From Bacteroidota bacterium (GTDB lineage: Bacteria > Bacteroidota > Bacteroidia > Bacteroidales > UBA1715): 39,601 nt of DNA. Shown here piece by piece: positions 10,986 through 17,014 of this stretch (position 1 is its first letter; each line of letters begins with the position of its first letter). The notes under the pieces were generated by a model. The model made no database searches. It was not told the DNA's origin and saw only the letters and a program-made list of their open reading frames with translations. The DNA lies in NCBI GenBank assembly GCA_009786075.1, contig WQTX01000014.1, positions 1 to 39,601 on the forward strand, given 5' to 3'. The position numbers were made by a program, and so were the translations under genes.

Positions 10986-11059
10986 AAAGCCCCCTAAATC
11001 CCCCTCAGGGGGGACTTTAAGAAACTTGCAGTTTCTTTACTCCTCCCCTTGAGGGGAGG
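10986..11059. repeat. C-rich palindromic repeat cluster overlapping the DUF1599 stop
   Basis: Three palindromes sit side by side: 10986-11018 (CCCCCT..AGGGGGG type), a hairpin 11019-11037 (7-bp stem AAGAAAC/GTTTCTT) and 11042-11059 (8-bp stem CCTCCCCT/AGGGGAGG). The last two overlap the stop codon (11037-11039) and final codons of the DUF1599 gene. The reading QPLPTSPQGEE is the usual translation of this C-rich repeat. Confidence 0.75.
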
Positions 11060-11618
11060 TTGGGAGGGGCTGCTTTTCTATTACTAATTTTATCAATGCA
11101 AAAATAGCATAATTTATCATATCATAATAATTTGCGTCTATTCCTTCCGAAATTTTTGTTGCGCCGTTGTTGTTTTCAATTTGTTTTGTACGGTGTATTT
11201 TCATCAAAATCAAATCGGTGTACGAACTTGTGCGCATACTGCGCCACGCTTCGCCGTAATCGTGATTTTTATCAAGCATAAGCGTAGTGGCGGCATCGTA
11301 ATATTTTTCGTACAAATTCATTGTTGCCGCTTTTTCCATTTCCACAGGTGCATCGTCGCTTAATTCCAATTGAATTAAACCCATAATTCCGTAATTGACA
11401 ATGGCAATAAATTCGGGCACAATGCCTTCGTTTACTTTTGAAATGCCTTTTTGTTCAATGCTTTTTATGCGTTGCGCTTTTATAAAAATTTGGTCGGTAA
11501 TAGATTCTGCACGCATTATGCGCCACGCAGTGCCATAGTCGTCGTATTTTTTTTCAAAAATATCGAAACATATTTTTTTAACTTCCGCAAATTGCGTTTT
11601 GGTTAATTCCATTGACAT
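11037..11618 (-). CDS. DUF1599 family protein (two tandem domains)
   Basis: The 193-residue protein contains two related halves. Residues about 10-85 hold YDDYGTAWRIMRAESITDQI, and about 100-180 hold HDYGEAWRSMRTSSYTDLIL; each is followed by a KAQRIKSIE/KIHRTKQIE helix. This duplicated D-Y-G-x-A-W-R pattern is diagnostic of DUF1599. The function is not known to me. The C-terminal QPLPTSPQGEE comes from a palindromic repeat that has replaced the natural tail. A minus-strand -7 box lies at 11641-11648, and the gene leads the BT_3928-like / tpiA series. Confidence 0.88.
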   Translation of the reverse strand: MSMELTKTQFAEVKKICFDIFEKKYDDYGTAWRIMRAESITDQIFIKAQRIKSIEQKGISKVNEGIVPEFIAIVNYGIMGLIQLELSDDAPVEMEKAATMNLYEKYYDAATTLMLDKNHDYGEAWRSMRTSSYTDLILMKIHRTKQIENNNGATKISEGIDANYYDMINYAIFALIKLVIEKQPLPTSPQGEE

Positions 11619-11640
11619 AGTAAAAAAATCTTATTTTTGC

Positions 11641-11648
11641 CAAAAGTA
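11641..11648 (-). promoter_or_regulatory. -7 box for DUF1599 / tpiA series (TACTTTTG)
   Basis: An exact TAnnTTTG on the minus strand, 22 bp upstream of the DUF1599 start; divergent from the PIN gene promoter. Confidence 0.6.
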
Positions 11649-11691
11649 AAAAAATATTGTGAGTTTTTACTGTGTGCAGTTAAAAAATGTC

Positions 11692-11699
11692 TATTTTTG
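11692..11699 (+). promoter_or_regulatory. -7 box for the PIN gene (TATTTTTG)
   Basis: An exact TAnnTTTG 20 bp before ATG 11720. It argues against the longer reading from ATG 11687, which begins upstream of the box. Confidence 0.6.
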
Positions 11700-11719
11700 T
11701 GCTCAATGTAACATTTTTG

Positions 11720-12184
11720 ATGAAAGTATATCTTGACAATTGTTCTTACAACCGCCCTTTTGACGACCAAAGTCAGATGCGTATTTACTTGGAAACGCAA
11801 TCCAAGTTATATGTTCAGCAATTGATATGTTTTGGTCGTTTATCATTGGCTGTTTCTTATGTTTCTCGTTATGAGAACGGAAATAGTCCTTATTCAAAAA
11901 ACAAAATAGCAATTGGAAGATTTTTTAAGAATGCAACAACATATATTGATATTGACAAAGCAGATATAATTGAAGAAAGAGCAGCTGGAATTATGAAATA
12001 CGGAATAAAAGCAAAAGATGCACTACACATTTCGTGCGCAATAGAGGCACAATGCGATTATTTTATAACTACCGACGACGGGATTTTGAAAAAACACAAA
12101 ACAGGCGATATACAAGTGTGTTCGCCGATAGATTTTATTACTATTTGGGAGGATTATTTATGTACAGCACAGCAACCATTATGA
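11720..12184 (+). CDS. PIN-domain protein, probable toxin of a toxin-antitoxin-like pair
   Basis: The 154-residue protein begins MKVYLDNCSYNRPFDDQSQ, the opening of a PIN-like subfamily common in Bacteroidetes, Chlorobi and cyanobacteria. Acidic residues expected in a PIN nuclease site are D6, the D15-D16 pair, the aspartate in KAKDALHISCA and the terminal TTDDGILKK. PIN proteins of TA modules cleave RNA. The start at 11720 is set by the -7 box. The next gene overlaps it by 25 bp, indicating translational coupling. It marks the left edge of the accessory island between DUF1599 and folP. Confidence 0.75.
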   Translation: MKVYLDNCSYNRPFDDQSQMRIYLETQSKLYVQQLICFGRLSLAVSYVSRYENGNSPYSKNKIAIGRFFKNATTYIDIDKADIIEERAAGIMKYGIKAKDALHISCAIEAQCDYFITTDDGILKKHKTGDIQVCSPIDFITIWEDYLCTAQQPL

Positions 12185-12363
12185 ACGACGGCATAAATTG
12201 CCTTGTAGAACGATTGGGGATTATTGAAACGGAAATTTTTATATCTCAAATCATTCGTGAACCACTTGATTACACAAAATGGCAAAGAGAACACTATGCC
12301 GATATGTCGCTAAGCGAATTGAATAAAAAGGCTGTGGAATATGCAAAAAACTCACGTTCGTAA
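12160..12363 (+). CDS. small partner of the PIN gene, possible antitoxin
   Basis: The 67-residue protein begins MYSTATIMNDGINCLVERLG and continues with an IIETEIFISQIIREPLDYTKW segment. This resembles the small proteins encoded next to PIN genes of the same subfamily. It overlaps the PIN gene by 25 bp in another frame and must share its transcript. The gene order (PIN first) is the reverse of the classic antitoxin-first order. The antitoxin role is inferred from position only. Confidence 0.6.
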   Translation: MYSTATIMNDGINCLVERLGIIETEIFISQIIREPLDYTKWQREHYADMSLSELNKKAVEYAKNSRS

Positions 12364-12526
12364 TTTTTAATTCATTTTTATTGTCTAAACTGTGATTTTA
12401 AAATGATTATGTTGATTTATGTGATTTTTTAAATTGCATTGGAATTCAACTTTCGCAAGTTAAATTTATAGCAAAAACAAACATTTCGACTACGCTCAAT
12501 GACCACCTAATTTGCACCTAATTTAA

Positions 12527-12656
12527 AACAAAACAACCTAAGTAACAGATAGATACACACACATAACCTAATTACCTTTCATTAAAAATTTTTATTGAAA
12601 AATCAGGTAATTAGGTCTTTTATATGTGTGTCACGTGTTACTTAGGTTGTTTTGTT
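12527..12656. repeat. 130-bp imperfect palindrome upstream of the DGR target gene
   Basis: Three nested perfect arm pairs are visible: 21 bp (12527-12547 with 12636-12656), 9 bp (12557-12565 with 12623-12631) and 12 bp (12566-12577 with 12605-12616), around a 27-nt AT-rich loop. The rest of the gene-free stretch 12364-12766 holds a TTTCGACTACGCTCAATGAC word at 12484-12503, three ATCAGGT words, and the target promoter. The palindrome is too long for a simple terminator and could be a MITE-like insertion or a regulatory structure. Confidence 0.85.
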
Positions 12657-12730
12657 AGAAAACAATCAGGTATAAATCAGGTGTTATTGCGAATAATCAG
12701 TAAAAAAACAATCACTTCTCTGAAAAATTC

Positions 12731-12738
12731 TATATTTG
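12731..12738 (+). promoter_or_regulatory. -7 box for the DGR target gene (TATATTTG)
   Basis: An exact TAnnTTTG 28 bp before the target start at 12767, and 75 bp after the end of the 130-bp palindrome. Confidence 0.62.
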
Positions 12739-12766
12739 TGGATTGAATTTGAAATTATCTTGAGAA

Positions 12767-14569
12767 ATGGCAGGAAATAAAAAAAATCGTATTATTTTAA
12801 TTGGGAATGGGTTTGACTTGGCGCATAAAAAAAATAGCTTAAAAGCAAATGGGTTAAAGACTGGTTACATGCATTTTATAAGTAATTTTTGGAAAAATGA
12901 ATTAAATTTAGTTAATTCTACTTCAACGAAAATTATTAGTAATCGGAAAGAAAAAACTTATTCTGCATACGAAGATGAATTTATAATTGTAAAAAAAGAA
13001 AAAGAAAAGATTGATAGTGTAGATGAATTAAAACTGAAAATTGTCAATTATAAAAATAAATTTTTAAGTGCTATTGTAAAAGAACAACACATTAGAAATT
13101 GGGTTGATGTTGAAGAAGTTTACTATAAAGAATTAATCAAGTGCTGGAAAATAAAAAAAGATAATTTGGAAGAAGATTTTTTTAATTCTTCAATTAGAAA
13201 ATTGAACAACGATTTTGAGGCGATTAAGAATCAGTTGGAAAATTATCTTCGAGATAAATGTCAAGTAACTATAGATAACAGTTCATTTTTAAAAAACCTA
13301 AAACAAAAAGATATCGATAATAACTTAAAAGATGAAAAGAATGCTTATAATAAAACTCTTTTTCTGTCTTTTAATTATACAGATACAGAACAACATTATA
13401 ATACAAAAGAATACAAAGAAAATTTTAAAAAAGGGAACGAATTGATTTTTGATGAAAACGTAATTCATATACATGGAAAATTAGGAGATAAAACAAATCC
13501 AATAATTTTTGGCTATGGGGATGAATTGGCGGAAAACTATAAAGATATTGAAAACTTAAATGACAATGAATTTTTAGAATATACCAAGTCAATTAAATAT
13601 TGCGAAACCAAAAATTATATAAATCTGTTGAATTTTATTGATTCTAATGATTTTGATATTTATATTTTTGGTCACTCTTGTGGAAACAGTGACCGCACTC
13701 TATTAAATAAATTGTTTGAGCATGATAATTGCAAACATGTAAAAGTATTTTATTGGCAGAAAAATAATATTCATGATGATTATACTGATATTTTGAAAAA
13801 TATTTCTAGAAATTTTGGCAAAAAGGATTTATTTAGAAGTAGAGTTGTAAAAAAGAATGCTTTAGTTAAATATAGAGAACCAAAAGAATTAGTAACATTT
13901 CAAAAAGAAAGACTTGAAAAAATGGAGGTTCCCGATAATTATAAATATAAATTGTTGGAAAATGGAGAAGAACGAGAGATTAATGGTAGTTTTTATATTG
14001 GAAAATGGCAAGTAACCCAAAGGCAGTGGCAAGAAATGATGAGTAATAAATATAAAGAAAATAAACTCCCAGTTGTATCTGTCAGTTGGTTTGATGCGAT
14101 TGAATTTTGTAATCGTTTAAGTGAAAGATATGAATTGGAAAAATATTATGATATAAGAGGGACTGATGTAGAGATAAATAAAAATGCAAAAGGTTTCCGC
14201 CTGCCTACCGAAGCCGAGTGGGAATATGCAGCGCGGTATTGCCGTCAAGATGGGACAGAGACGAAGGAATATGCTGGAACGGATAGTAAAGACGAATTGA
14301 AGAATTATGCTTGGTATTCTGAGAATAGCGAAAACGAAGCACATGAAGTTGGTACTGCACCAAAAGCAGATGAATTAAAAATTCACGACATGTCCGGCAA
14401 TGTTTGGGAGTGGTGCGAGGATTGGTACGATAATGACGGTCGTTTCCGTGTGCTGCGCGGCGGTAGCTGGAACAACTACGCCGAGTACTGCCGCGTGTCG
14501 TTCCGCTACTACTACGAGCCGGGCTACTGCAGCAACGGCATTGGGTTCCGCTTGGCGCGTTCCCTCTAG
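12767..14569 (+). CDS. DGR target protein: AbiH abortive-infection domain fused to a hypervariable FGE-sulfatase/C-type-lectin-like domain
   Basis: This 600-residue protein has two parts. Residues 1 to about 350 match AbiH: IILIGNGFDLAH near the N-terminus, SFNYTDTE at 201-208, VIHIHGKLGD at 232-241 followed by IIFGYGDEL, and FGHSCGNSD at 301-309. AbiH proteins are abortive-infection phage-defence factors. Residues about 409-600 are an FGE-sulfatase (SUMF1-like) domain: FYIGKWQVTQRQW from 409, GFRLPTEAEWEYAAR at 476-490, DMSGNVWEWCEDWYD at 541-555, then the terminal RGGSW...GFRLAR block. Codons 558-600 are the variable region; nine differ from the template, seven of them to Tyr or Phe. The N-terminal part is markedly more AT-rich than the C-terminal end, which suggests domain shuffling. 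The protein has no signal peptide and is probably cytosolic. Confidence 0.93.
   Translation: MAGNKKNRIILIGNGFDLAHKKNSLKANGLKTGYMHFISNFWKNELNLVNSTSTKIISNRKEKTYSAYEDEFIIVKKEKEKIDSVDELKLKIVNYKNKFLSAIVKEQHIRNWVDVEEVYYKELIKCWKIKKDNLEEDFFNSSIRKLNNDFEAIKNQLENYLRDKCQVTIDNSSFLKNLKQKDIDNNLKDEKNAYNKTLFLSFNYTDTEQHYNTKEYKENFKKGNELIFDENVIHIHGKLGDKTNPIIFGYGDELAENYKDIENLNDNEFLEYTKSIKYCETKNYINLLNFIDSNDFDIYIFGHSCGNSDRTLLNKLFEHDNCKHVKVFYWQKNNIHDDYTDILKNISRNFGKKDLFRSRVVKKNALVKYREPKELVTFQKERLEKMEVPDNYKYKLLENGEEREINGSFYIGKWQVTQRQWQEMMSNKYKENKLPVVSVSWFDAIEFCNRLSERYELEKYYDIRGTDVEINKNAKGFRLPTEAEWEYAARYCRQDGTETKEYAGTDSKDELKNYAWYSENSENEAHEVGTAPKADELKIHDMSGNVWEWCEDWYDNDGRFRVLRGGSWNNYAEYCRVSFRYYYEPGYCSNGIGFRLARSL
14438..14569 (+). 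other. DGR variable region (VR) with 3' IMH-like end
   Basis: These 132 bp align without gaps to the template at 15197-15328 (offset 759). Differences are at 14444, 14445, 14477, 14486, 14502, 14507, 14510, 14525 (template A to T) and 14532, 14537, 14538 (template A to G). No other base differs. The last 31 bp (14539-14569), ending in the stop codon, are identical and GC-rich, as expected for the initiation of mutagenic homing site. Confidence 0.96.
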
Positions 14570-14585
14570 TTCTACCACGAGAGGG
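14562..14585 (+). other. hairpin at the 3' end of the VR
   Basis: CCCTCT (14562-14567) pairs with AGAGGG (14580-14585) around a 12-nt loop. The same left arm after the TR lacks the right arm. A hairpin beside VR but not TR is a known target-recognition feature of some DGRs; this one is weaker (6 bp) than the Bordetella phage example. Confidence 0.55.
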
Positions 14586-14607
14586 CATTTATCCATGTTG
14601 TAAGCTA
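14573..14607. repeat. inverted copy of the TR 3' flank, located after the VR
   Basis: Bases 14591-14607 are the exact reverse complement of 15326-15342 (TAGCTTACAACATGGAT). The complementarity continues to 14573/15361 with four mismatches and one gap. The helix would enclose the accessory gene and the TR. Confidence 0.9.
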
Positions 14608-14620
14608 AAAGGAAAAAAGA

Positions 14621-14701
14621 GTATTTGCAAAGAGGCGAAGTGAGGGACGAACGAAGCCGAAGGGCAAATACGAGAATAGTATAAATACCGCCTGTGGCGG
14701 T
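14621..14701 (+). other. two hairpins between target gene and accessory gene
   Basis: GTATTTGC (14621-14628) pairs with GCAAATAC (14664-14671). ACCGCC (14687-14692) pairs with GGCGGT (14696-14701) around a TGT loop. The second is followed by a T-rich stretch (14708-14714) just before the accessory start, so it may attenuate or terminate target-gene transcription. Confidence 0.55.
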
Positions 14702-14718
14702 CGAAAATTTTTTTAAAA

Positions 14719-15204
14719 ATGCAATTTAAGATTTATACAATTCCATTGCTCGATGATGGGCAAATAGTAGAAGAAATGAATCGTTTTCTGCGTGGAAACA
14801 AGGTGGTTAATGTAGATAAACAGTTAGTTACGCTTAATGGCGGCGGAGCTTATTGGAGTTTTTGCGTTCAATATATCGGTAATGCCGTTATGACCAACAA
14901 AGAGGAGTTTGAACGTAAAGGAAAAATCGATTACAAGAACGAACTTAGCGAGGCGACTTTTGCTGTGTTCAGCCGGTTACGCGCTTGTCGCAAAAAAATA
15001 GCCGATGATGAGGCTATACCCGCTTATGCCGTCTTTACTGACGCCGAGTTGGCAGAAATAGCCCGTTTAGACGAAATAACGGAAAAGAATATGCTTTCTA
15101 TTCATGGAATCGGAAGCAAAAAAATGGAAAAATACGGCAAACAAATGTGCCAAATGATATTGGAAAATAATGCCGTTACTAACGATAAAGTCGAAGGGTC
15201 GTAA
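14719..15204 (+). CDS. DGR accessory protein with C-terminal HRDC-like domain
   Basis: The 161-residue protein takes the place that Avd has in the Bordetella phage DGR. The N-terminal half ([20 protein letters not shown], then a [13 protein letters not shown] strand region) is a compact alpha/beta segment. Residues about 80-150 look like an HRDC domain ([40 protein letters not shown]), a small nucleic-acid-binding fold known from RecQ and RNase D and reported as an alternative DGR accessory. It probably helps bring the reverse transcriptase to the template RNA or target DNA. Its stop codon (15202-15204) lies inside the first bases of the TR. The start at 14719 follows an AT-rich leader. Confidence 0.85.
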
Positions 15205-15328
15205 CCGTGTGCTGCGCGGCGGTAGCTGGAACAACAACGCCGAGAACTGCCGCGTGTCGTACCGCAACAACTACGAGCCGGGCAACTGCAACAACAACAT
15301 TGGGTTCCGCTTGGCGCGTTCCCTCTAG
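15197..15328 (+). other. DGR template repeat (TR)
   Basis: This 132-bp non-coding template matches the VR except at 11 of its 29 adenines. It reads in the target frame with 11 AAC codons, the codon type that gives the widest amino-acid range when adenines mutate. The first eight bases overlap the end of the accessory gene; the accessory stop codon uses template adenines 15203-15204, which are both mutated in the VR copy. Confidence 0.96.
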
Positions 15329-15361
15329 CTTACAACATGGATGGATGTCCTCATAGTGGTA
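15326..15361. repeat. TR 3' flank, inverted partner of 14573-14607
   Basis: It begins at the last three bases of the TR and is the reverse complement of the sequence after the VR (17 bp exact, then about 14 of 18 matched with one gap). Confidence 0.9.
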
Positions 15362-15380
15362 AACAGACTTTTATCGCGCT

Positions 15381-15483
15381 TTCTGCCTTCGGTGCGGAAA
15401 CAAACATGAGCAGTCGTGCACTGCCTGATAAACCGGTGTCGGTAGCTCTGCCGGATAGCAGTGTCGAAAACTCCGGTTTTTTT
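15381..15483 (+). ncRNA. structured TR-RNA spacer between TR and reverse transcriptase
   Basis: Three hairpins can be drawn: 15381-15399 with a C(UUCG)G tetraloop and one bulge; 15410-15424 (GCAGT/ACTGC, 5-nt loop); and 15430-15479 (AAACCGG pairing with CCGGTTT), followed by T7 at 15477-15483. The last resembles an intrinsic terminator. In the Bordetella phage DGR the equivalent spacer is needed for cDNA synthesis, so this is likely the 3' part of the template RNA. Confidence 0.65.
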
Positions 15484-15496
15484 AAAATTGATATGT

Positions 15497-16468
15497 ATGA
15501 ACAGAACAGGTAATCTAATAGAGCAAATATACGACACCGATAATCTGTATTTGGCTTATTATAAGGCAAGTAGAGGCAAGCATGTGAAACAGGCTGTAAT
15601 AGATTTCGGGCGCAATTTGGATATAAACATTCGTTTACTCCGGCAACAATTGCAGACAGGAGAGGTGCAGGTAGGAAATTACCACTATTTTACCATCTAC
15701 GACCCTAAGCAGCGTACAATTTGCGCCGCCGCTTTTCAAGAAAGAGTTTTGCATCATGCGTTGATGAATGTTTGCCACCCCTATTTCGACCGGCATTTGA
15801 TTGCCGGTTCGTATGCTACCCGGATTGGCAAGGGTGTTTATGCAGCTATTGATAATGCGTTTTCCGCCATGAGCCGATACCAATATGTATGCAAGTTGGA
15901 TGTACGCAAGTATTTTGGTTCCATTTCGCATATCGTACTGAAACAGCAACTTCGCCGTTTATTCAAGGACGCCGATTTATTGAAATTATTTGATAAAATA
16001 ATTGACAGTTATGATACACAGGCGGGTTATGGTATTCCCATAGGTAATCTTACCAGCCAGTATTTTGCCAATCACTATTTGTCGTCTGTTGACCATTATG
16101 CCAAGGAACAATTGAAAATCCCTGTTTATATTCGTTATATGGATGATATATTATTTTTTGGAAACGACAAAGAAATGATAAAAACATGGGTTGTCGAATT
16201 GACGGTGAGGGCTTCCTCTGCGTTAGAATTAAATTTCAAACCGTATTCCATCTGTAAATGCAGACAGGGCATCTCTTTTCTGGGTTATCAATTGTTTCCC
16301 AACAAAATACTGTTGAATAGCCGCAGTAAAAAGCGTTTCCACAAAAAAATGATGCAATATGCTCAATGGATGAATAGCGGTCGTTGGAGTGAAGCCGATT
16401 ATTGCAGTCACGTACTACCGCTCCTTGCATTTGCAAGGCATGCTTATACCAAACGGCTTTTTTATTAA
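15497..16468 (+). CDS. DGR reverse transcriptase
   Basis: The enzyme copies the template RNA with adenine-specific errors to make the mutagenised cDNA. The 323-residue protein has the RT palm and fingers in order: FQERVLHHALMN, KLDVRKYFGSI, the DGR-type motif GIPIGNLTSQYFAN at 179-192 (DGR enzymes have this SQ where other RTs differ), YIRYMDDILFF with YMDD at 214-217, and FLGYQLF. There is no maturase, endonuclease or retron-type domain, so a group II intron or retron is unlikely. The ATG at 15497 is preferred; a GTG at 15461 lies inside the terminator-like hairpin. No Shine-Dalgarno is seen. Confidence 0.96.
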   Translation: MNRTGNLIEQIYDTDNLYLAYYKASRGKHVKQAVIDFGRNLDINIRLLRQQLQTGEVQVGNYHYFTIYDPKQRTICAAAFQERVLHHALMNVCHPYFDRHLIAGSYATRIGKGVYAAIDNAFSAMSRYQYVCKLDVRKYFGSISHIVLKQQLRRLFKDADLLKLFDKIIDSYDTQAGYGIPIGNLTSQYFANHYLSSVDHYAKEQLKIPVYIRYMDDILFFGNDKEMIKTWVVELTVRASSALELNFKPYSICKCRQGISFLGYQLFPNKILLNSRSKKRFHKKMMQYAQWMNSGRWSEADYCSHVLPLLAFARHAYTKRLFY

Positions 16469-16479
16469 ATTTCCGCATA

Positions 16480-16505
16480 AAAAGTTTCAAAATTTTGAAA
16501 CTTTT
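16480..16505. promoter_or_regulatory. 26-bp perfect palindrome, candidate HigA operator
   Basis: AAAAGTTTCAAAA followed by its exact reverse complement. It ends 2 bp before the -7 box at 16508-16515, so it covers the spacer and upstream promoter region, the place expected for an autoregulating antitoxin. It may also act as a terminator for the reverse transcriptase gene. Confidence 0.6.
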
Positions 16506-16507
16506 GT

Positions 16508-16515
16508 TATATTTG
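16508..16515 (+). promoter_or_regulatory. -7 box for the HigBA-like pair (TATATTTG)
   Basis: An exact TAnnTTTG 29 bp before the short toxin remnant at 16545. Confidence 0.6.
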
Positions 16516-16544
16516 TCAAATAAAAATTAATCCTAAAATATTGT

Positions 16545-16673
16545 ATGCAATTTTTTGAAACTATCTTCTTGGACGAAGCTGATGAATTTATTTTTTCTTT
16601 GGATGCAAAAACGAGAAAAAAGATATTTTATAATGTGCGTCTTGCCGAGCAAACTAATGACCCTGAATTATAG
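16545..16673 (+). pseudogene. truncated HigB/RelE-type toxin remnant
   Basis: The 42-residue reading starts MQFFETIFLDEADEFIFSLD, continues with KTRKKIFYNVRLAEQ, and stops at NDPEL. This matches the N-terminal third of phage-derived Gp49-like/HigB toxins, which are normally about 100-115 residues. The C-terminal part holding the catalytic residues is missing, and the antitoxin starts only 3 bp after the stop. The pattern suggests an internal deletion that removed the toxin's active region and left the promoter and antitoxin. Confidence 0.7.
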
Positions 16674-16676
16674 AAT

Positions 16677-17003
16677 ATGGAACGCTTAAAAAAACGTACT
16701 TTGTCGGAAATGGAAGACAAATACATAGGAAAAATAGGTGCTCCCGAACGTGATGAGTATGAATATGAATTGCGTATGGATTTATTGGCGCGAATGATAA
16801 AAAAAACACGAAAAGAACGAGGATTGACCCAAGAAATGTTGGGCGAAATTGTCGGCGTGAACAAATCGCAAATTTCAAAACTCGAAAATCATAGTAATAG
16901 TGCCACTATTGACACAATTATACGAGTATTTAAAGCTCTAAAAGCTGATATTCAGTTTAGTATAAAATTAGAAAATGCGATGCCTCTGCAAATGAGTTTT
17001 TAA
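16677..17003 (+). CDS. HigA-like antitoxin, HTH XRE family
   Basis: The 108-residue protein has an N-terminal segment (LSEMEDKYIGKIGAPERDEY) typical of HigA antitoxins paired with Gp49-like toxins, then a helix-turn-helix (TRKERGLTQEMLGEIVGVNK, then SQISKLE and the TIDTIIRVFKAL helix). It should bind the partner toxin and repress its own promoter, probably at the palindrome 16480-16505. The toxin is truncated, so this is effectively an orphan antitoxin. The folP start follows 12 nt after its stop. Confidence 0.85.
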   Translation: MERLKKRTLSEMEDKYIGKIGAPERDEYEYELRMDLLARMIKKTRKERGLTQEMLGEIVGVNKSQISKLENHSNSATIDTIIRVFKALKADIQFSIKLENAMPLQMSF

Positions 17004-17014
17004 ATCGAAAGCAT

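Follow-up and report, generated by a model that had tools for sequence, protein, structure and literature searches.

An AbiH-FGE fusion protein as the single target of a Bacteroidales DGR: a predicted abortive-infection receptor

The window analysed here, a stretch of 39,601 nucleotides from a bacterium of the Bacteroidales (contig WQTX01000014.1), carries a complete DGR cassette in which a target gene ending in a variable repeat (VR) is followed by an HRDC accessory gene, a template repeat (TR) and a reverse transcriptase (RT) gene. The first-pass annotation of this DNA had recognized all these components, but its order of template, accessory gene and RT needs to be changed, as the HRDC gene precedes TR and the RT comes after it. 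The target gene (12767-14569, +) is one uninterrupted frame of 600 codons fusing an AbiH domain to an FGE/C-type-lectin-like domain, just as that annotation had read it. By Pfam, AbiH occupies residues 9-328 (12791-13750, +; 7.8e-26), where the annotation, staking its model on this result, had expected it within residues 1-350; the match to PF14253 is full length (92.2 bits for a cut-off of 30.9, profile positions 1-257 of 260). FGE-sulfatase covers residues 407-598 (13985-14560, +; 6.9e-36), a putative variable sensor whose best sequence match in the PDB is the DGR target TvpA of T. denticola (2y3c, 1.2e-32). We relied on this homology rather than on the residue geometry of our full-length model, because the FGE half is poorly predicted. 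These two are the only domains above the Pfam curated cut-offs, with no STAND, vWA, TIR or CHAT domain above them, and no signal peptide is visible in the N-terminal sequence. A PADLOC scan gave no match for the target and only general matches for HRDC and RT, an Rfam search gave none, and a plasmid search with the whole target returned only partial matches below 60% identity, none covering 80% of it, those listed falling on the FGE side.

Both repeats are 124 bp long, VR (14446-14569, +) including the stop codon of the target and TR (15205-15328, +) beginning with the base that directly follows the stop codon of the HRDC gene. They differ at nine positions, all of them adenines in TR, an outcome with a chance probability of about 1e-6 given 27 adenines in 124 bases, and the adenine-targeted variation claimed at the outset is thereby borne out. 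Since the repeat extends through the shared stop codon, VR comprises the last 40 codons plus the stop rather than the 43 codons originally counted, even if its location at the C-terminus of the target stands. VR constitutes the C-terminal part of the FGE/C-lectin domain and contains 16 mutable codons, corresponding to about 2e15 protein variants, and no change of TR adenines can produce a stop codon in its frame. The 3.18 Mb assembly holds no further copies of TR or VR and a single DGR RT.

The RT gene (15497-16468, +) encodes 323 residues with the motifs IPIGNLTSQ and YMDD, GxxxSQ and YMDD being hallmarks of DGR-type RTs, and is identified by RVT_1 (1.6e-10), a PHROG reverse transcriptase match (4.9e-92), alignment and tree. 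The start is most likely the ATG at 15497 and not the listed GTG at 15461, since relatives align at the former. The HRDC protein of 161 aa (14719-15204, +; Pfam HRDC 9e-18) represents a known type of DGR accessory protein (PMC10053308); HRDC genes accompany the RT in its relatives too, most of which adjoin TR/VR pairs. Hence the following features by which DGRs are recognized are found at this locus: a TR/VR pair near an RT with differences confined to adenines, a VR inside a target of C-lectin fold (the TvpA-like FGE domain), an RT of the appropriate type and an accessory protein of the Avd, HRDC or MSL class.

Just downstream of VR, the TR 3' flank recurs in inverted form as F' (14581-14614, -), whose 34 nt are 85% complementary to F, the segment formed by the 3' end of TR and its flank (15319-15352, +). 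Such inverted similarity between the 3' flanks of TR and VR is a feature of the RT/HRDC lineage as a whole, reaching p<0.05 in 26 of 27 loci within it compared with 2 of 13 loci outside it, and the pairing of these flanks is likely to be a homing or priming element. F and F' might instead bound a mobile cassette; a link to TR is favored, however, by the arrangement in the window, where F remains next to TR and the RT falls beyond the F'-F interval. The DGR of phage BPP-1 (PMC3240598) follows the same VR/TR logic, and its VR too is directly followed by a structured element; this is a local hairpin/cruciform in BPP-1, whereas the lineage of the window has an inverted copy common to the flanks of VR and TR.

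Locus comparison places the cassette in an accessory island of ~5.4 kb (11619-17014) between a DUF1599-like gene (11037-11618, -) and folP (17015, +). These two genes stand head to head, separated by about 70-660 bp, in 9 of the 12 family loci, including both congeners, from which the island with its DGR unit is absent. Upstream of the target gene there is a palindromic MITE-like repeat (12522-12661; 26-nt arms, 92% complementary), which is present at some 20 genomic sites, including one just upstream of a standalone AbiH paralogue. The island also contains an HTH antitoxin-like gene (16677-17003, +; HTH_3 2.8e-12, HipB/HigA-like NCBIfam matches) that is not clearly part of the DGR. A short ORF of about 43 aa precedes it and may be a truncated toxin.

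The fusion recurs in other Bacteroidales. A genome scan found 492 relatives, of which the best 80 were examined, and there are at least four further AbiH-FGE genes in three other genomes, with 37-57% identity. One of them, L106, has its own HRDC gene, RT and TR, and thus provides a second complete DGR, of the kind that the first-pass annotation had proposed to look for, with 11 of 11 mismatches at adenines. L254 (the L144 contig) has two fusion genes and has lost DGR machinery, while for the fusion gene of L105 no recognizable TR, even in trans, is present in its genome assembly; consequently, the coupling of AbiH-FGE to a DGR is not obligatory. When the TR and VR of L106 are compared with the two VRs of L254, 12 of 14 template adenine sites vary as against 1 of 55 other sites (Fisher p 1.3e-10). 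Related loci therefore show variation almost only at template adenines, the opposite of the fixed repeats with non-adenine changes that had been named as contrary evidence, and the non-adenine framework of VR is kept between them. The AbiH parts of the fusions are only 37-46% identical, yet the GNGFD motif, the Asn and the His of [HY]IHG are retained, and all five fusion genes have open frames and the conserved residues. Such conservation despite the divergence of AbiH, together with the kept VR framework, implies long-term constraint. The other AbiH genes examined are standalone, of about 300-460 aa, except for L172, a long AbiH ORF that was rejected as a further fusion for its C-terminal tail of ~170 residues is unassigned and not FGE. 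In viral contigs, a single-protein query found no AbiH relatives; an alignment query brought up 20, and the flanks examined contained no FGE, HRDC or RT.

The AbiH part was modeled with pLDDT 85 and pTM 0.86. In VIA-align the rows listed for this model are SIR2-containing or sirtuin complexes, with the best Z of 11.4-12.0 over ~250 residues (for example 8w9l_A, PsSIR2: Z 11.4, 263 residues, rmsd 6.1), and the best Foldseek match is to SIR2-HerA (E 4.6e-05). The likeness is remote, at ~11-15% identity, and a sequence-profile search of the PDB with AbiH returned nothing meaningful; the SIR2 assignment thus rests on predicted structure and on the comparative analysis that places AbiH in the Sir2 superfamily (PMC3506569). 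N203 and H236 are invariant across 55 AbiH homologues, a conservation read from the AbiH alignment. From the model we infer that the AbiH part would be an enzyme of the Rossmann-type SIR2 fold resembling the NAD+-consuming antiphage SIR2 proteins (SIR2-HerA/Nezha, ThsA of Thoeris, DSR2 and Avs5), with which it has in common the predicted fold; the retained Asn and His may correspond to the conserved Asn and His of their NAD site. In DSR2 and Avs5, too, a SIR2 effector and a sensor are parts of one protein, but no DGR is known to diversify the sensors of these NADases.

In functional terms, these observations raise a question: What would a bacterium gain by mutating one face of an AbiH protein? 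Our preferred answer, to which we assign a probability of about 0.6, is that the single target of this chromosomal DGR would be a cytosolic receptor for abortive infection whose sensor can be retargeted. Adenine-mutagenized cDNA copied from TR would replace VR in individual cells, so that the population would come to hold many receptor variants. A variant FGE face might then bind a component that the phage produces inside the infected cell, whereupon the AbiH domain would be released or oligomerize and break down NAD+ or a related nucleotide. Cell death or growth arrest would follow before phage release. Diversification would in this scheme be anticipatory, preceding infection, and not a memory of past invaders. 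The immune-sensor reading is strengthened by the recurrence of the fusion in other genomes and by the SIR2-like fold with its invariant Asn and His, and the same pairing of protein and retroelement in other bacteria suggests a hypermutable one-gene immune receptor.

The alternative that survives best, though we consider it unlikely, is that the FGE domain senses a small molecule, a sugar or a self/kin signal, with AbiH serving kin discrimination or a stress response as a signaling or toxin module. The ligands of C-lectin folds are many, and the same RT lineage includes FGE targets that look secreted or lipoprotein-like (L087, L088, L095), those of L087 and L095 beginning with signal-peptide-like sequence; immunity is therefore not the sole use of this lineage. 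Against a non-phage ligand, AbiH is a gene family known for phage resistance, protecting Streptococcus thermophilus from some phages (PMC12322248), the window target has no export signal, and neighbors in the RT clade diversify proteins of other kinds: in the tree, the nearest RT with another target (L085) diversifies an LRR protein that has a P-loop-like motif, the target in L087 being a caspase-FGE protein. Less probable still is that insertion of a mobile DGR-FGE unit at a defense gene left a decaying hybrid of little function with inactive AbiH. The AbiH part is indeed AT-rich (GC ~0.23-0.29) beside VR, HRDC and RT (0.38-0.51), an insertion of 8 residues, at approximately 21-28, adjoins its conserved GNGFD motif and could impair it, and L254 and L105 lack machinery or template; such decay is nevertheless difficult to reconcile with five fusions that have kept conserved residues, open frames and the non-adenine VR framework at the AbiH divergence reported above. 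An artifact of assembly or binning by which an unrelated FGE-DGR locus became attached to an AbiH gene, conceivable with 176 contigs and an estimated contamination of 5.76%, is most improbable in view of the uninterrupted 600-codon frame and the independent fusions in three other genomes.

The predicted abortive-infection receptor has to be qualified with respect to published systems. The first-pass annotation implied that a diversified defense effector was unprecedented, a view overtaken by reports of putative antigen sensors that are diversified by DGRs and associated, through fusion or linkage, with STAND, CHAT and TIR domains (Dore 2024, PMC10907252; Kaur 2020, PMC7159879; Belalov 2023, PMC10053308). 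The sensors of Dore and Kaur share with the window the RT, TR and accessory gene, a C-terminal VR in a C-lectin/FGE domain with defense-type domains, mobile-element-rich loci and an immune role that is a proposal. Their targets, however, are STAND NTPase, CHAT, TIR or vWA proteins, often with separate effectors and adaptors, and AbiH is not mentioned, whereas in the window a single protein without NTPase comprises both a predicted SIR2-like effector and, directly fused to it, the variable sensor. TvpA has the same FGE-type C-lectin target domain but is described as an outer membrane lipoprotein (PMC10907252), while the window protein has AbiH at its N-terminus. With the AbiH of Lactococcus lactis and S. 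thermophilus it shares the full-length Pfam domain, to which a variable sensor has been added. Hence, DGR-diversified defense sensors as such are known, and what appears to be new is AbiH fused directly to a DGR-variable domain. More tentatively, and with odds somewhat short of even, the locus may exemplify a one-gene anticipatory receptor that combines a SIR2-like, NAD+-consuming suicide enzyme with a randomized sensor, needs no NTPase or adaptors, and is served by a homing or priming signal in the TR and VR flanks. A clonal population would then hold a repertoire out of about 1e15 conceivable specificities.

The published immune-sensor idea for DGRs draws mostly on large systems of many components from uncultured bacteria. 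A protein of 600 aa that contains both effector and variable sensor, in a compact cassette and with a predicted enzymatic readout, makes this idea directly testable. Separately from immunity, the inverted flank gives a lead, open to testing, on target finding or priming by cellular DGRs. The finding thus bears on the role of DGRs in cells, as opposed to phages.

The window holds one complete DGR, in which the target with its variable repeat (VR), the HRDC accessory gene, the template repeat (TR) and the reverse transcriptase (RT) follow one another in this order. The target gene (12767-14569) encodes a protein of 600 aa in which residues 9-328 match the Pfam profile of AbiH (7.8e-26) and residues 407-598 that of FGE-sulfatase (6.9e-36). 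The first-pass annotation was therefore right in describing a complete DGR with an AbiH-FGE target and in placing its N-terminal part in AbiH, but its order of template, accessory gene and RT was slightly off: the HRDC gene (14719-15204) precedes the TR, its stop codon directly abutting the TR start, and the RT (best start ATG 15497, end 16468) comes after. The VR (14446-14569) comprises the last 124 bp of the target, stop codon included, and the TR (15205-15328) repeats it with nine differences, all at template adenines (9/9, chance ~1e-6). Read in the frame of the VR, the TR has 16 mutable codons and cannot yield stops. Searches of the 3.18 Mb assembly found neither an additional TR or VR copy nor a second DGR RT.

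How frequently does such a fusion recur? An AbiH alignment was scanned against the genomes of 84,980 species and the best 80 of 492 relatives were kept, among which AbiH is fused to FGE at three loci: L105, from a Prevotellaceae MAG, and L106 and L144, from Bacteroidales MAGs. The contig of L144 (L254) carries two such genes (L254:591-2699 and L254:9480-11354, 6.8 kb between them), and the fusion genes in this set, window included, number at least five. These MAGs look like termite-gut bins from their sample names, for which a literature search gave no confirmation. In a Pfam survey of 395 genomes of the class, no other AbiH match over the cut-off lay in a frame longer than 450 aa; hence, the fusion is rare. 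A further relative (L172:4995-6683) has AbiH followed by a C-terminal tail of ~170 residues without Pfam assignment, with a weak WWE-like match, and is possibly another AbiH-sensor fusion.

Of these loci, L106 has a complete DGR, with its own HRDC gene, an RT 57% identical to that of the window and a TR differing from the VR at adenines only (11/11 over 79 bp). This TR (L106:3991-4097) lacks ~24 nt of VR sequence, in frame, reflecting either TR shrinkage or a repeat collapsed in assembly. For the first-pass annotation, fixed VRs with non-adenine changes at related loci would have refuted the model, and this is not what the loci show: relative to the TR of L106, its own VR and both VRs of L254 vary at 12 of 14 adenine positions but at 1 of 55 other positions (Fisher p 1.3e-10). 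Identity between the fusions is only 37-46% in the AbiH part and 42-57% in the FGE part, yet GNGFD, the [FC]NY Asn and the [HY]IHG His are retained in all five. In gene a of L254, an HRDC stub of 32 residues runs into sequence that in L106 follows the TR on its 3' side, which indicates loss of the DGR machinery at this gene; gene b, followed by a TPR gene common to L106, is also without machinery. A diversified target can therefore persist after its cassette is gone.

The AbiH part, modelled alone (55 homologues; pLDDT 85, pTM 0.86), is predicted to have the SIR2 fold. All 50 VIA-align matches listed for the model are SIR2-containing or sirtuin complexes, including 8yhx_Q, from an entry titled HerA complex (Z 12.0, 248 residues, rmsd 4.7), PsSIR2 (8w9l_A; Z 11.4, 263 residues, rmsd 6.1) and, lower down, SIR2-HerA, KomC, ThsA, DSR2 and Avs5; the best Foldseek match is E. 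coli SIR2-HerA (8sub_A, E 4.6e-05). AbiH was predicted to be a Sir2 superfamily enzyme by Makarova et al. 2012 (PMC3506569), and it restricts some phages in S. thermophilus (PMC12322248). Residues G13-D17, H20, N203, H236, G302, S304 and D309 are invariant in the 55 AbiH sequences. Directly after GFDLAH, the window copy has an insertion of eight residues (~21-28, 12827-12850), poorly predicted in the model and not found in the AbiH homologues aligned with it, which may affect the active site. Among solved structures, the best sequence match to the sensor half is TvpA, the DGR target of T. denticola (2y3c, 1.2e-32). The C-terminal region of TvpA aligns with the window's VR. One of the two catalytic cysteines of FGE enzymes seems to be replaced in the window's domain, a lead that would be consistent with a domain that binds ligands and does not act as an enzyme.

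In the RT tree, the window groups with L106 and L085 (support 100/98). The L085 target is a protein of 1416 aa with LRR, a GMGGSGKS P-loop-like motif and FGE, in an NLR-like layout; other targets are a caspase-FGE protein whose start resembles a signal peptide (L087) and an FGE domain behind an N-terminus without assignment (L094), and all three loci have an HRDC gene. Wherever the repeat pair of a lineage relative is resolved, the order is VR, accessory gene, RT, TR; only in the window does the TR precede the RT, lying between HRDC and RT (14719-16468). Elsewhere in the phylum, one family (L218-L237) has many DGRs of this lineage, several per genome.

The same RT/HRDC lineage shares another feature: the 3' flank of the TR reappears, in inverted orientation, right after the VR. 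In the window, 15319-15352 (the TR 3' end and flank) pairs with 14581-14614 over 34 nt at 85%. By shuffling, the inverted match within each locus has p<0.01 in 22 and p<0.05 in 26 of 27 lineage loci (the window, L106 and 25 further), as against 0 and 2 of 13 DGRs outside the lineage; direct-orientation matches are at background level, two loci excepted. In most loci, the inverted match begins near the 3' end of the TR. It exceeds all cross-locus controls in 11 of 15 Bacteroidia loci, so the flanks co-vary. The TR transcript could thus pair just beyond the VR, either with the message or with the top DNA strand; a 3' end at this site would adjoin the TR and could serve as primer for cDNA synthesis. 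Alternatively, the pairing might mark the target. The inverted flanks are then a possible homing or cDNA-priming element, differing from the local hairpin after the VR in BPP-1 (PMC3240598); a limited search of the open literature found no description of such a pair.

The cassette lies within an island of ~5.4 kb between a DUF1599-like gene and folP, two genes that are neighbours, separated by 70-660 bp, in the two congeners and in seven further members of the family; the flanking genes are of housekeeping type (folP, BT_3928 family), not phage. GC is 0.23-0.29 in the AbiH part versus 0.38-0.51 across VR, HRDC and RT. A MITE-like palindrome, present at roughly 20 genomic places, immediately precedes each of the two AbiH genes in the genome, at 12522-12661 before the target and at G000:C24:27735-27892 before the standalone paralogue.

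The first-pass annotation considered an AbiH-DGR system undescribed. This stands insofar as AbiH is absent from the main texts of Dore (PMC10907252) and Kaur (PMC7159879), and the sole paper in the open literature with both terms places AbiH beside a different RT class; however, DGR-diversified putative antigen sensors are already published, with FGE/C-lectin domains on STAND, CHAT, TIR or vWA proteins (PMC10907252, PMC7159879, PMC10053308). Compared with these, AbiH-FGE is therefore a simpler, one-protein variant with a different effector, through which, we infer, phage sensing would lead to NAD+ loss and abortive infection.
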